Assembly (NCBI RefSeq): GCF_016612535.1 | Contig: NZ_JAENXS010000002.1 | Coordinates: 310,001 to 374,000, forward strand | Length of the DNA stretch: 64,000 nt | Direction of reading: 5' to 3' | Origin: Bradyrhizobium diazoefficiens | GTDB lineage: Bacteria; Pseudomonadota; Alphaproteobacteria; Rhizobiales; Xanthobacteraceae | Translations under genes and position numbers: made by a program | Shown here: piece by piece, positions 41,573 through 45,069 of the stretch | How the letters are laid out: each line of letters starts with the position of its first letter | Position numbering within the stretch: position 1 is the first letter of the stretch | The notes under the pieces: generated by a model | What the model saw: the letters and a program-made list of their open reading frames with translations, nothing else | The model's database searches: none | What the model was told of the DNA's origin: nothing

Positions 41573-41782
41573 ATGAGCCCGTCGCAGCTCACGAACGCCC
41601 AGCTCGCCAACGCTCAGGTCACGCTTCCGGTTGCCGCCGGGCACGTGGGACGGCTGTCGCAGGCTCTGATGGCGATGATGCTCGGCGTGTTCGTCGTCGG
41701 GGTGGTCGGCTTCTCGCATATCGACGTCGTCCACAACGCTGCCCACGACGTGCGGCATTCGAACGCGTTCCCCTGCCACTAG
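41573..41782 (+). CDS. cbtB: CbtB-type cobalt transporter subunit
   Basis: 69-residue protein with one membrane helix (LSQALMAMMLGVFVVGVVGF) and a short metal-binding-looking tail rich in His (HIDVVHNAAHDVRHSNAFPCH region). This is the CbtB pattern, predicted small partner of CbtA in cobalt uptake. ATG 41573 has GGAGAA 7 bases upstream. cbtA starts 10 bases after its stop. Elsewhere cbtAB often follow a cobalamin riboswitch; none was recognised here. Confidence 0.88.
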   Translation: MSPSQLTNAQLANAQVTLPVAAGHVGRLSQALMAMMLGVFVVGVVGFSHIDVVHNAAHDVRHSNAFPCH

Positions 41783-41792
41783 CCGGGGTGGC

Positions 41793-42578
41793 ATGAGCAC
41801 GTTTCGCGCGATCGTCTTCGCGTCGGTCATTGCCGGTTTCATCGTCGGTCTCATCGTCACTGTCGTCCAGCAGTTCGGCACCGTCCCCCTGATCCTGAAG
41901 GCGGAAGTCTTCGAGAAGGCGGCGGAAGCACATCAGCATGACGTTCCAGCCACCGCGCAACCGACGGCTGCCGGGCATGATCACGCAGACCATGATCATG
42001 CCGGTCACGACCATGGCGCCGGCGACCACGACCATGGCGCCGGGGCGTGGGAGCCGCGCGACGGGTTCGAACGCAACGCCTACACCGCCGCTGCCAACAT
42101 CCTGACCGCGATCGGCTTCGCGCTGCTCCTGGCCGGCTTCTTCGCCGTGCGCAGCGGTGCCACCGGCGGCAGCGTCTCCTGGCACGAAGGCCTGCTGTGG
42201 GGCTTGGCGGGCTTTGCCGTCTTCACGCTTGCGCCCGGCCTCGGCCTGCCGCCCGAGCTGCCCGGCGTGCCTGCCGCGCCGTTGCTGTCGCGGCAGATCT
42301 GGTGGCTGGCCGCCGTGCTGGCGACGGCCGGAGGGCTTGCCTTGATGGTCTTCCGCCGCTCGGTGCCGGCGGCGATCGCCGGCGTGATCCTGCTGACCCT
42401 GCCGCATCTGATCGGCGCACCCGAACTCGCCAACATCGAGACCAACGTGCCGTCGTCACTGACGCATCAGTTCGTCACCGCCGTGACGGTGACGAGCCTG
42501 GTGTTCTGGACCCTGCTCGGCGGTTTGACGAGTATGGTATTCGCGCGTTTCGACCGCGGCGCGGACCAGCGCGGCTAA
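41793..42578 (+). CDS. cbtA: CbtA-type cobalt transporter subunit
   Basis: 261-residue membrane protein: first helix SVIAGFIVGLIVTVVQQFG, then a periplasmic-type His/Asp-rich loop (residues about 48-85, repeating GHDHA/DHDHG units), followed by four more helices. This is the CbtA architecture of a predicted cobalt permease; biochemical proof for the family is limited. Unit with cbtB (and probably the DUF1488-like gene). Its stop overlaps the stop of the convergent small membrane gene by 4 bases. Confidence 0.9.
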   Translation: MSTFRAIVFASVIAGFIVGLIVTVVQQFGTVPLILKAEVFEKAAEAHQHDVPATAQPTAAGHDHADHDHAGHDHGAGDHDHGAGAWEPRDGFERNAYTAAANILTAIGFALLLAGFFAVRSGATGGSVSWHEGLLWGLAGFAVFTLAPGLGLPPELPGVPAAPLLSRQIWWLAAVLATAGGLALMVFRRSVPAAIAGVILLTLPHLIGAPELANIETNVPSSLTHQFVTAVTVTSLVFWTLLGGLTSMVFARFDRGADQRG

Positions 42579-42799
42579 CGTTGCGACCGTGTCGCGGTGC
42601 GCCACCGTAGCAACGCGACCGCGGTCCAGACGGTCTCGACACATCCGAACGGCCAGGCGCCCTGGAGAAAGCCGTAAATCGCACTGAGCGCGCACGCCGC
42701 CGCGAAGGCCAGCACATAATGCGGTCCGCGCGGCTCGAGCGCGTAGAACAGCAGCATCGCGCCGACCGACAGCAGTCCGAAGATCGCGAGCCCGTCCAT
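42575..42799 (-). CDS. Small membrane protein, partner of MerT-like gene, 74 aa
   Basis: Two predicted membrane helices (FGLLSVGAMLLFYAL; YVLAFAAACALSAIYGFLQG) and a conserved-looking GAWPFGCVETVWTAVALLRW end. The ATG overlaps the TGA of the MerT-like gene by one base, so it is translationally coupled to it. No family recognised. Cysteines at the helix end and near the C-terminus could bind soft metals; role as transport partner is inference from coupling. Confidence 0.7.
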   Translation of the reverse strand: MDGLAIFGLLSVGAMLLFYALEPRGPHYVLAFAAACALSAIYGFLQGAWPFGCVETVWTAVALLRWRTATRSQR

Positions 42800-43239
42800 C
42801 AGCCGGCCGGCGGCTTCGGCTTCTTGGCCACGCCGAGCTCGTGGAAGACGACGGACTCCATTGCCGGCCACAATGCGGCCGTCGCGGTCAGCACGGTCGC
42901 CGCGCACATCGCCGCCAGCACCGTCGATCGGATTTTCAAGCCCGTCATTCGCGACCGCCACACGATCCAGCCCCAGGCGCAGAGCACGACGGCAATCGAC
43001 AGCTTCGTTATCTGGCCATGCGCATGGTCGAGCACGGCGATCAGGCTTCCCGCGCTGGCGAGCACCACAGCGGGCAAGGTGAAGGGAAGCAGGCAGCACG
43101 CCGTGCAGGCTGCAGCGACAATAGCCGTCGCCACGGCGGTGCCCGCGGCCTTGCCGCCACCTTGCTCGATCTTCGCAGCGCAGCCGCATCCCGACGACGT
43201 CTCCGAGGGGAGGCCGCAGGACGGTCCAATAACGCTCAT
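42799..43239 (-). CDS. MerT-like inner-membrane metal transporter, 146 aa
   Basis: N-terminal soluble Cys-rich part (SCGLPSETSSGCGCAAK), then three or four helices. Helix 1 carries ACTACCLLPFTLPAVVLAS, resembling the vicinal CC-x-x-P of mercuric transporter MerT. ATG 43239 has GAGGAGA upstream. It is transcribed from a MerR-type promoter with a 19-bp spacer, divergent from the merR-like gene. A soft-metal or mercury role is supported by this context; the ion itself cannot be fixed, and MerP or MerA are not in view. Confidence 0.75.
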   Translation of the reverse strand: MSVIGPSCGLPSETSSGCGCAAKIEQGGGKAAGTAVATAIVAAACTACCLLPFTLPAVVLASAGSLIAVLDHAHGQITKLSIAVVLCAWGWIVWRSRMTGLKIRSTVLAAMCAATVLTATAALWPAMESVVFHELGVAKKPKPPAG

Positions 43240-43274
43240 GTGATTCTCCTCATGCTTGTGCGTCTCGAACCTGA

Positions 43275-43305
43275 TCGCTACGCCCTCAGGCCACTTGAGG
43301 TTCAA
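43275..43305 (-). promoter_or_regulatory. MerR-type promoter/operator of the MerT-like operon
   Basis: On the minus strand: -35 TTGAAC (43305-43300), 19-bp spacer, -10 TAGCGA (43280-43275). The spacer contains the dyad CCTCA-N7-TGAGG (43284-43300). A 19-bp spacer with internal dyad is the known signature of promoters that MerR-family proteins activate by DNA distortion. Predicted transcript start near 43268, leader about 29 bases. Confidence 0.8.
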
Positions 43306-43324
43306 GCGAAAAGTGAGAGCTTCC

Positions 43325-43729
43325 ATGAGAATTGGTGTCCTCGCCAAAGCCGCCGGAGTCTCGGTCCCGACCATCCGCTATTACGAGAGCATCGGCCTGC
43401 TCACGCCGCCGGCGCGCCAGGGCGGCCAGCGCATCTATGGCGGCGAAGACGTCAATGCACTCCGCCTGATCAGGCATTGCCGCGATCTCGACTTCTCGAT
43501 TGACGAGACCCGCAACATCCTCGCATCGGTGCATCGGCGCTTGCCCTGTAGCGACACGAAGGCGTTTGCGGAGCAGCACCTCGCATCGATCAGGAAGAAG
43601 ATCGCGGAGTTGCGCGCGCTTGAGACGACAGTAGCCGCGCTGGTGAGCGGCTGCGAGACAACCTGCTGCGGCAGCGCCGCGCCGGATTGCGTGATCCTGC
43701 AGCCAGGAGAGATCAATTGCGGATCATGA
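43325..43729 (+). CDS. MerR-family metal-responsive transcriptional regulator
   Basis: 134 residues. N-terminal winged helix MRIGVLAKAAGVSVPTIRYY with GLLTPPARQGGQRIY, a dimerisation helix, and metal-loop cysteines: C75 (LPCSDT), C110, C114, C115 and C122 (SGCETTCCG ... PDC). The 35-residue gap between C75 and C110 equals that between MerR C82 and C117, fitting a thiol-based Hg/Cd/Pb-type sensor. Divergent from the MerT-like gene with its operator between. The 3' end overlaps rcnA tail to tail by 6 bases. Confidence 0.9.
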   Translation: MRIGVLAKAAGVSVPTIRYYESIGLLTPPARQGGQRIYGGEDVNALRLIRHCRDLDFSIDETRNILASVHRRLPCSDTKAFAEQHLASIRKKIAELRALETTVAALVSGCETTCCGSAAPDCVILQPGEINCGS

Positions 43730-44785
43730 CATCAGTTCGTGCAGGCCGATCCAGCCGGTGTAGAGGCCGACGAAGACGATCAGGGCCGCCGATACGTAGG
43801 GCGCACGGTGAGCGTAGCGGCTGAAGCCGCCCCAATGTCGTTCGACGTGCCGCAGGCTGAGCGCCGCCAGCACGCCTGCCGACACCATCGTGATAGCGAG
43901 CCCGATGCCGAAGGACAGCACCAGGACGAAGCCAAGGCTGAACTGCTTCAGCTGAATGCAAAGCAGCAGCACGGTGATCGCGGCGGGGCAGGGGATCAGT
44001 CCACCGGTGAGGCCGAACAGGACGATCTGTGCGGTGGTGACGTTGCCTCCCGCAAAGCGCTTGCGGATGTCCGCGGCATGGGCGCGGGCGTGCGCATCGT
44101 CCTCGTCGCCGAGATTCATGTGGCCGTGATCGTGCTCTTCGAAGAGGAGCTCTGCGGCGGCGGCGCCCAGGGTCACGCGCGCCTTGAATGCATGCGGCTC
44201 GGGAATTTCCTCGACGCTTTCGAGGTAATCGTCCCGGGAGGCGAACGCGAAGGTCTGCTCCGAACCGTCTTCGCGAAGCGTGGTCACCTTGATGTCGCCG
44301 GCAGCGGGAAGCGCGCCGTTCGCGCTCCGGATCCGCCAGCGCGGCGGCACGCCGTCTTCAAAAACCTCCAGCAGCAGGGACGACCCGGCTAGCGAGACGG
44401 ATTGCGGTTCGTCGTGATGGTCGTGGTCGTGCTCGTGGTTCTGCTCTCGCCACGTGCGCCAGACCATCCAGGCGGCAACGCCGATGATGATGGCGGCGGA
44501 CGCCAGTTGCAGGTAGGCCTCGCTGCGTTCGCCGGACAATTCCCGGCCGAAATAAAGTCCCGCGAGCGCGATCGCCCAGACCACCGCGGTATGGGAGATG
44601 GCCGCCGACAGACCGAGCAGCGCGGCCTGAAGCACCGTTCCTCTCACCGCGATGATGAAGGCGGCCATCATGGTCTTGGAATGGCCGGGCTCGAGACCAT
44701 GCAGGGCGCCGAGCAGGATCGCGCTTGGCACGAACAGCCATGCGTGCGCGCTGCTCTGTTGGAGCAGATGAGACAGGTCGGTCAT
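43724..44785 (-). CDS. rcnA: Nickel/cobalt efflux protein, RcnA/NicO family
   Basis: 353 residues, predicted six to seven helices. The family metal motif is in helix 1-2 (HGLEPGHSKTMMAAF, residues 29-43). A His/Asp loop (EHDHDHHDE) and a longer soluble insert with another acidic/His stretch (EEHDHGHMNL) separate the two membrane halves; the second half has GGLIPCPAAITVLLLC. Start MTDLSHLLQ is 5 bases after the rcnR stop (TGA-ACGAC-ATG), so it is the second gene of an rcnR-rcnA unit. Expected role is export of excess Ni/Co. Confidence 0.92.
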   Translation of the reverse strand: MTDLSHLLQQSSAHAWLFVPSAILLGALHGLEPGHSKTMMAAFIIAVRGTVLQAALLGLSAAISHTAVVWAIALAGLYFGRELSGERSEAYLQLASAAIIIGVAAWMVWRTWREQNHEHDHDHHDEPQSVSLAGSSLLLEVFEDGVPPRWRIRSANGALPAAGDIKVTTLREDGSEQTFAFASRDDYLESVEEIPEPHAFKARVTLGAAAAELLFEEHDHGHMNLGDEDDAHARAHAADIRKRFAGGNVTTAQIVLFGLTGGLIPCPAAITVLLLCIQLKQFSLGFVLVLSFGIGLAITMVSAGVLAALSLRHVERHWGGFSRYAHRAPYVSAALIVFVGLYTGWIGLHELMS

Positions 44786-44790
44786 GTCGT

Positions 44791-45069
44791 TCACTTCAAA
44801 TAGGTTCGGACGACGTCGATGAGGTCGGCCGCGCCCCTGGCCTTCTCCGGATCCTTCTCGTGCGCGGGATCCACGACATGGTGGCGGATGTGGTCCTCGA
44901 GCAGTTCGGTGGTGAGGCCGCTGATCGCGCCTTTCACCGAAGCCACCAGCATCAGGACATCGGCGCAACCGATCTCCGACTCGAGCGCGCGTTCGACCGC
45001 CTCGAGCTGCCCCTTCATGCGACGGACGCGGCCGATGAGCTTCGACTTGTGCTTGATGGTGTGCGACAT
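44791..45069 (-). CDS. rcnR: RcnR-type (CsoR/FrmR family) nickel/cobalt-sensing repressor
   Basis: 92 residues from ATG 45069. All four Ni/Co ligands of RcnR fall at the exact positions: His3 (MSHTIKHK), Cys35 (EIGCAD), His60 and His64 (EDHIRHH). The helical core KLIGRVRRMKGQLEAVERAL and AISGLTTELL fits the all-alpha family. The start is chosen because it restores His3 and coincides with the predicted transcript start; an ATG 6 bases upstream lies next to the -10 box. Expected to repress itself and rcnA until Ni or Co binds. Confidence 0.93.
   Translation of the reverse strand: MSHTIKHKSKLIGRVRRMKGQLEAVERALESEIGCADVLMLVASVKGAISGLTTELLEDHIRHHVVDPAHEKDPEKARGAADLIDVVRTYLK

Follow-up and report, generated by a model that had tools for sequence, protein, structure and literature searches.

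What does a MerR-family regulator control when the genes diverging from it are not merTPA? The question is raised by a locus within a 64,000-nucleotide stretch of the 8.0-Mb genome of Bradyrhizobium diazoefficiens (the window, meaning that whole stretch), in which such a regulator faces an operon of two genes encoding a MerT-like membrane protein (MTL) and a 74-residue membrane protein (S74; coordinates in Table 1). An earlier note on this DNA had proposed that MTL and S74 form a two-component soft-metal transporter under MerR control. The locus is identified here as a conserved, unnamed mer-like module, a variant of the known mer systems, whose core is made up of the regulator, its operator and MTL. 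S74 is a dispensable accessory small membrane protein from a common family and not a specific partner of MTL, with a presumably auxiliary role. The gene order, the operator, the conserved cysteines, the relationship to MerT and the replaceability of S74 were established in this study. We put at roughly 0.6 the probability that the locus is a pared-down relative of the mer operon, with neither merA nor merP among the operon genes, and that it handles a thiophilic metal, for which Hg(II) or an organomercurial is the likeliest candidate.

MTL is rare, being encoded in 22 of 341 genomes of the same family and 5 of 297 of the same order; one weak, doubtful match in each list (G411 in the family, G287 in the order) and six class-level matches beyond the window's own genome (four to the N-terminal domain alone, two to the membrane part) were not taken as MTL loci. 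Sixteen close-clade loci (the window, L003, L007, L008, L009, G103, G490, G527, G530, G536, G538, G539, G541, G562, G568 and G610) and eight more distant loci (G176, G420, G491, G543, G554, G576, G577 and G606) were compared. MTL of the window had no plasmid match, and the median dN/dS among 13 MTL sequences was 0.195. Proteins 53-69% identical to MTL are encoded for the most part on metagenome contigs. A profile of 27 MTL sequences, drawn from the best 120 of 199 matches, was compared using hhalign with a MerT set (A3) made up of 12 of 16 matches from the same bacterial family, one of them below cut-off; the other four matches, which were omitted, comprise one nearly identical copy, one fragment and two sequences resembling MerF. 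The comparison gave 95.9% over 92 columns, or 96.4% over 94 columns when distant MTL sequences were added, and took in three membrane stretches with the CC-x-x-P motif. Control comparisons among S74, YnfA, MerT and MTL gave 0.2-0.7%, and a MerF-like set gave 12% against the MTL profile, all of these percentages referring to single pairs and not to a database search. Judged by its profile, MTL is thus a relative of MerT, as the earlier note had it, though no Pfam or NCBIfam cut-off was reached. MerT was matched in 11 of 100 genomes searched (10 above cut-off), with no match in the genome of the window. Cysteines of MTL lie at positions 8, 18, 20, 45, 48, 49, 87 and 112; C45, C48 and C49 are invariant across 29 MTL sequences, and C8, C18 and C20 constitute the N-terminal cluster that had been described from the window, a cluster by which MTL differs from MerT.

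The regulator scored above the Pfam cut-offs for the MerR helix-turn-helix (PF13411, 71.9 bits) and for the effector domain (PF09278, 57.5 bits), and missed all equivalog cut-offs, with 92.8 bits against the Hg(II)-specific MerR model TIGR02051 (cut-off 150.85) and 90.6 bits against the CadR-PbrR model. Its best match in the Protein Data Bank (PDB) is named merely 'Transcriptional regulator, MerR-family', and MerR and then CadR come next. C52, C75, C110, C114 and C122 are Cys in all 26 regulators compared. By alignment, C75 corresponds to MerR C82 and CadR C77, C110 to MerR C117 and CadR C112, and C122 to CadR C119, the MerR piece in the alignment stopping short of C126. In the portion of PMC9909328 available, the metal ligands are given as C82', C117 and C126 in MerR and as C77', C112 and C119 in CadR, and Cys instead of Ser at the C75 position is said to accompany divalent metals. 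The regulator resembles the CadR/PbrR and MerR sensors in having Cys at the ligand positions, but differs from them in a Cx3Cx7C loop with an invariant fourth Cys (C114). The earlier note had described a Cys pair spaced as in MerR, which does not hold: 11 residues lie between C110 and C122, versus 8 between C117 and C126 of MerR (numbering of the same portion of PMC9909328), a difference due to a longer loop, in which C114 and C115 are also found. Its wider proposal, in which a MerR-type sensor of soft metals adjoins a membrane protein related to MerT, is supported; the ligand cysteines are kept in 26 of 26 regulators.

The divergent promoter with a 19-bp spacer and the dyad CCTCA-N7-TGAGG was likewise found as described (TTGAAC-N19-TAGCGA); the expected number of such dyads in 64 kb is 0.05. 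A dyad inside a promoter spacer of 19-20 bp belongs to the definition of MerR-family metal regulators in the available portion of PMC9909328, and the dyad lies within such a spacer here. A longer operator pattern, TTGANCCTCAAGNNNCNTGAGG, has a single zero-mismatch match in the genome of the window, which is this promoter, and one further place with 2 mismatches; the reversed pattern, used as a control, also yields 1 match. With up to one arm mismatch tolerated, the operator is present in 22 of 27 scanned loci, including seven in which MTL is merely 42-48% identical. The exact pattern TTGANCCTCAAGTNNCTTGAGG, from which the window operator deviates by one base, was found in 5 of 296 family genomes, in four at MTL and in one (G421) before a gene of the SBF family, and its reversed control gave no match among the matches listed for the family genomes. 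No paper matching the exact operator letters was found in the open-licence PubMed Central literature.

The module shares with the mer operon (MerR, MerT, MerP and MerA, with MerC, MerF and MerE variants) a MerR-type regulator, a promoter with a 19-bp spacer and a MerT-related protein with vicinal Cys in the first membrane stretch, and differs from it in a divergent MTL gene, the extra regulator Cys and S74 or YnfA as the third gene. The earlier observation that the operon is not merTPA was borne out, since neither merA nor merP is present in it; MerP was sought in the operon genes and no genome-wide search for it was made. Nothing in the genome of the window scored above the MerA cut-off, the best three matches being, by eye, two dihydrolipoamide dehydrogenases and a glutathione reductase.

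S74 contains two strongly hydrophobic stretches and has no PHROG or NCBIfam match and no Pfam match above cut-off, in agreement with its description as a two-helix protein of no recognised family. A weak Pfam match to DUF3054 (E 0.015, below cut-off) was set aside, as was descent of S74 from a YnfA or MerT remnant (profile comparison 0.2% and 0.3%, respectively; no PF02694 match). Relatives of S74 numbered 1,257 at E <= 0.001. Of the 341 genomes searched in the family 156 encode the protein, as do 45 of the 297 searched in the order, and the operon copy is the sole one in the genome of the window. Other copies, examined at 18 loci (L116-L133), have differing surroundings, often housekeeping genes (by eye); several in Bradyrhizobium and its kin have ruvX, gatC/gatA or a LysR gene in their vicinity, and the copies of L121 and L130 are flanked by a LapA-like gene and trpF (also by eye). 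The ATG/TGA overlap of the earlier note was confirmed, the MTL stop and the S74 start sharing one base (TGATG), and this junction is identical in 9 of 9 parsed close-clade copies. S74 is intact beside MTL in 11 of the 16 close loci, broken in three (L007, L008 and G610) and absent from two (G538 and G103); MTL and the regulator are intact in four of these five S74-deficient loci, and MTL is broken in G103. The median dN/dS of S74 was 0.26 (9 sequences). In a tree of S74 copies (66 columns; the search pattern did not pick up the G568 copy), 9 of 10 operon copies form one branch with support 100/99, and the G530 copy groups apart, among canonical copies. Its position would suit a second, separate recruitment of S74 in G530, but a single origin of the operon copies was not rejected (approximately unbiased test, p 0.196).

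Conservation of S74 beside MerT-like genes, the lack of which was to refute the proposal according to the earlier note, holds in the close Bradyrhizobium clade and fails beyond it, where all 8 distant loci have a YnfA/UPF0060 gene behind MTL in place of S74 (confirmed with PF02694 in the four loci tested, G491, G576, G577 and G176). YnfA thus occupies in related modules the same third-gene slot as S74, but no sequence relation between the two was found by the profile comparison given above. When ten genomes were searched for UPF0060 genes, the three of YnfA type had one each, that of the module, and the seven of S74 type had none. The YnfA gene behind MTL in G176 (L110:6476-6838) looks damaged, matching at model positions 15-88 alone and differing at its ends, so YnfA may be dispensable too. 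YnfA is an efflux transporter in Shigella flexneri according to the title of PMC9295541, and no paper joining YnfA, MerR and mercury was found in the open-licence PubMed Central literature.

From these results we infer the metal, its transport and direction, activation by metal and the role of S74 as follows. A thiophilic divalent metal would be bound by the regulator through C75' of one subunit and C110 and C122 of the other, with C114 in addition. The regulator would be seated on the dyad in the 19-bp spacer, and metal binding would untwist the promoter and activate the divergent MTL-S74 operon, as in the MerR-family mechanism presented as established in the available portion of PMC9909328. 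MTL, a predicted three-helix inner-membrane protein, would move the metal across the membrane via CxxCC, its Cys-rich N-terminus would take the place of a separate binding protein, and S74 would serve as a dispensable helper in the slot that YnfA fills elsewhere. Hg(II) is the first choice because the proteins to which MTL is related transport Hg; less probable candidates are As(III), Cd/Pb/Zn and Co/Ni.

Several observations weigh against assigning the module to mercury in this way. MTL has no Pfam match (MerT being PF02411), and with 11 bits against merT_RC607 (cut-off 130, E 0.41) it reached no MerT cut-off, PRK13751 of NCBIfam included. It has no counterpart of the Cys pair in the loop between MerT helices 2 and 3, of which C98 is invariant and C92 is kept in at least 90% of set A3; in MerT this pair faces the cytosol. 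The AlphaFold2 model of MTL is poor (pLDDT 56), with three helices at 32-69, 74-99 and 105-134. Five of the 27 scanned loci gave no operator match (L010, in which the promoter is lost, L109, L112, L113 and L115), the immediate neighbours in the window are Co/Ni genes, and some relatives of the regulator stand beside SBF genes, as detailed below. MerA exceeded its curated cut-off in 2 of 20 MTL genomes (G491 and G543), neither of them among the 12 of the close clade, which would leave an Hg importer without a reductase to supply. Rhizobial genera are stated in the available portion of PMC11227200 all to carry merA genes outside operons, which counts against the present reading; the definition of merA used there seems to be looser.

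A module in cells without MerA would be more readily explained by export or sequestration of the metal than by its import. Tentatively, and with less confidence than in the reading above, MTL may have a MerT fold and transport in the outward direction: the soft metal would be taken from thiols by a Cys-rich head in the cytosol or, in relatives, by a CC-motif domain some 110 residues long, and MTL would expel it, aided by S74 or YnfA as interchangeable helpers. The CC-motif domain is fused to the N-terminus of MTL in 6 of 8 distant loci and in G071, has the pattern IACTL ... E-x-x-CC-x-F-L-x-F ... I-x-A-P-E and matches no Pfam or NCBIfam model. A MerR-type gene lies near the domain in most loci examined, and none was seen in L167. 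On plasmids the domain occurs alone or, in three proteins, behind a MerF-like membrane part (by eye). A long MTL relative matched 13 plasmid records, 12 of them via its N-terminal CC-motif domain alone. Plasmid relatives of the regulator were taken from the best 40 of 707 matching records, and in 6 of the 11 loci examined among these the CC-motif domain adjoins the related regulator.

The relatives of the regulator also bear on an arsenite/antimonite module, in which the four-Cys regulator would sense As(III)/Sb(III) and MTL would be an accessory of metalloid efflux, an explanation that we consider rather unlikely. In G421 (L164:2931-4477) the operator precedes a gene of the SBF family, from which a regulator of this kind diverges, and genes that by eye resemble ArsR and ACR3 are nearby. 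Such regulators also have SBF genes, or genes named 'arsenic resistance protein', next to them in G071, G438, Nitratireductor and Sinorhizobium M14, and in S. meliloti a bile acid:sodium symporter lies about 2 kb from a relative. Near the relative on a Sphingomonas CL5.1 plasmid are arsH and arsN2, together with GDCCVxC, YnfA and a MerT-like protein whose match to PF02411 (E 8.6e-6) stays below cut-off. On the other side, the MTL kin is an Hg transporter; the Nitratireductor SBF protein scored 23.7 against an ACR3 cut-off of 282.8 and that of G071 had no NCBIfam match; and the window module and its four immediate neighbours contain no ars gene, the flanks of the other close loci not having been searched for ars. 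A relative on a Janthinobacterium plasmid stands beside merRTPA, which, like the MerT-like and GDCCVxC genes of Sphingomonas CL5.1 and the fusions of the CC-motif domain to MTL and to MerF-like parts, speaks for the mercury reading. The Sphingomonas CL5.1 regulator (L183:4001-4420) contains an in-frame stop, while the annotation shows open frames for the genes next to it (CC-domain, MerT-like and YnfA). The fourth-Cys loop is missing from the regulators of Roseibium, Paracoccus yeei and Pseudomonas K-62, which fall into other MerR groups, and the Mycobacterium regulator has no Cys at the C110 position; no neighbour with a metal-resistance name was found in Paracoccus denitrificans or Mycobacterium, except for an ArsR-family gene in the former.

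An unlikely explanation is that of a Cd(II)/Pb(II)/Zn(II) module, with a CadR/PbrR-like sensor and MTL as the transporter of one of these metals. The near-equal scores of the regulator against the MerR and CadR-PbrR models, both below cut-off, and its PDB matches, an entry of unnamed type followed by MerR and CadR, are consistent with it; against it, the relative of MTL transports Hg, and the module and its four immediate neighbours contain no match to the P-type ATPase or cation-diffusion families.

Quite improbable is a cobalt/nickel module, in which the trio would belong with the flanking CbtAB and NicO-RcnR genes and answer Co(II) or Ni(II). By a hand-made table, CbtA adjoins the module in 7 of the 16 close loci and NicO likewise in 7, and NicO-RcnR also adjoin it at the distant G420 and G491; but 9 of the 16 have no CbtA, and among the 14 loci whose NicO side is visible 7 have no NicO. 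Loss of S74 accompanies the CbtA neighbour (5 of 7 versus 0 of 9, Fisher p 0.005, from a hand-made table and uncorrected for kinship), a further point against this explanation. An all-Cys metal site is unusual for Co/Ni. The repressor beside NicO scored higher against FrmR (76.5 bits) than against RcnR (57.4 bits), both below cut-off, and its signal may thus not be Ni/Co. An Rfam scan of positions 30000-56000 at gathering scores gave no family match, so no cobalamin riboswitch was seen near CbtB-CbtA (41573-42578).

Table 1. Coordinates of the module, its neighbours and the CC-motif domain. Positions without a locus prefix are those of the window.
Feature	Position	Strand	Description
S74	42575..42799	-	74-aa small membrane protein, accessory third gene; no PHROG/NCBIfam match, no Pfam above cut-off
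MTL	42799..43239	-	146-aa MerT-related membrane protein; N-terminal C8/C18/C20; CxxCC (C45, C48, C49) in first membrane stretch
MTL-S74 promoter	43275..43305	-	-35 TTGAAC (43305-43300), 19-bp spacer, -10-like TAGCGA (43280-43275)
MerR operator dyad CCTCA-N7-TGAGG	43284..43300		minus strand reads CCTCAAGTGGCCTGAGG
MerR-family regulator	43325..43729	+	134 aa; C75, C110, C114 and C122 invariant among 26 proteins compared
CbtB	41573..41782	+	variably present neighbour; Pfam/NCBIfam scans
CbtA	41793..42578	+	variably present convergent neighbour; 3' end overlaps end of S74
NicO/RcnA-type Ni/Co efflux protein	43724..44788	-	variably present neighbour
CsoR/RcnR/FrmR-family repressor	44791..45066	-	neighbour
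CC-motif domain	L106:5992-6762; L107, L108, L109, L110, L111, L114		
CC-motif domain, further loci	L180:3312-3902; L183:3537-3899; L184:3279-3902; L185:3548-3877; L165, L167, L169		both rows taken together: N-terminal to MTL, alone or (by eye) behind a MerF-like part

The earlier proposal in its strict form, MTL and S74 as one obligate heteromeric pump, is very improbable and was not supported: the TGATG coupling, the purifying selection on S74 and the single branch of nearly all operon copies speak for it, but S74 is lost in 5 of 16 close loci with MTL intact in four, is replaced by YnfA in every distant locus and is common without MTL (156 versus 22 of 341 genomes).

No description of the module was found among the listed titles and abstract starts of the open-licence PubMed Central literature. 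The mer-operon survey of PMC3466566 was, in its available portion, anchored on merA, and modules without merA would therefore have gone uncounted in it. If Hg(II) or another soft metal is handled here without a reductase, unnamed genes of Bradyrhizobium and of metagenomes would gain a testable function, and the exchange of S74 and YnfA in one slot offers a handle on two families of small membrane proteins. If MTL does work outward, the module would represent a reductase-free branch of mercury-type resistance with a four-cysteine MerR sensor and an operator of its own, and the direction of transport by MerT-type proteins would become a testable question.

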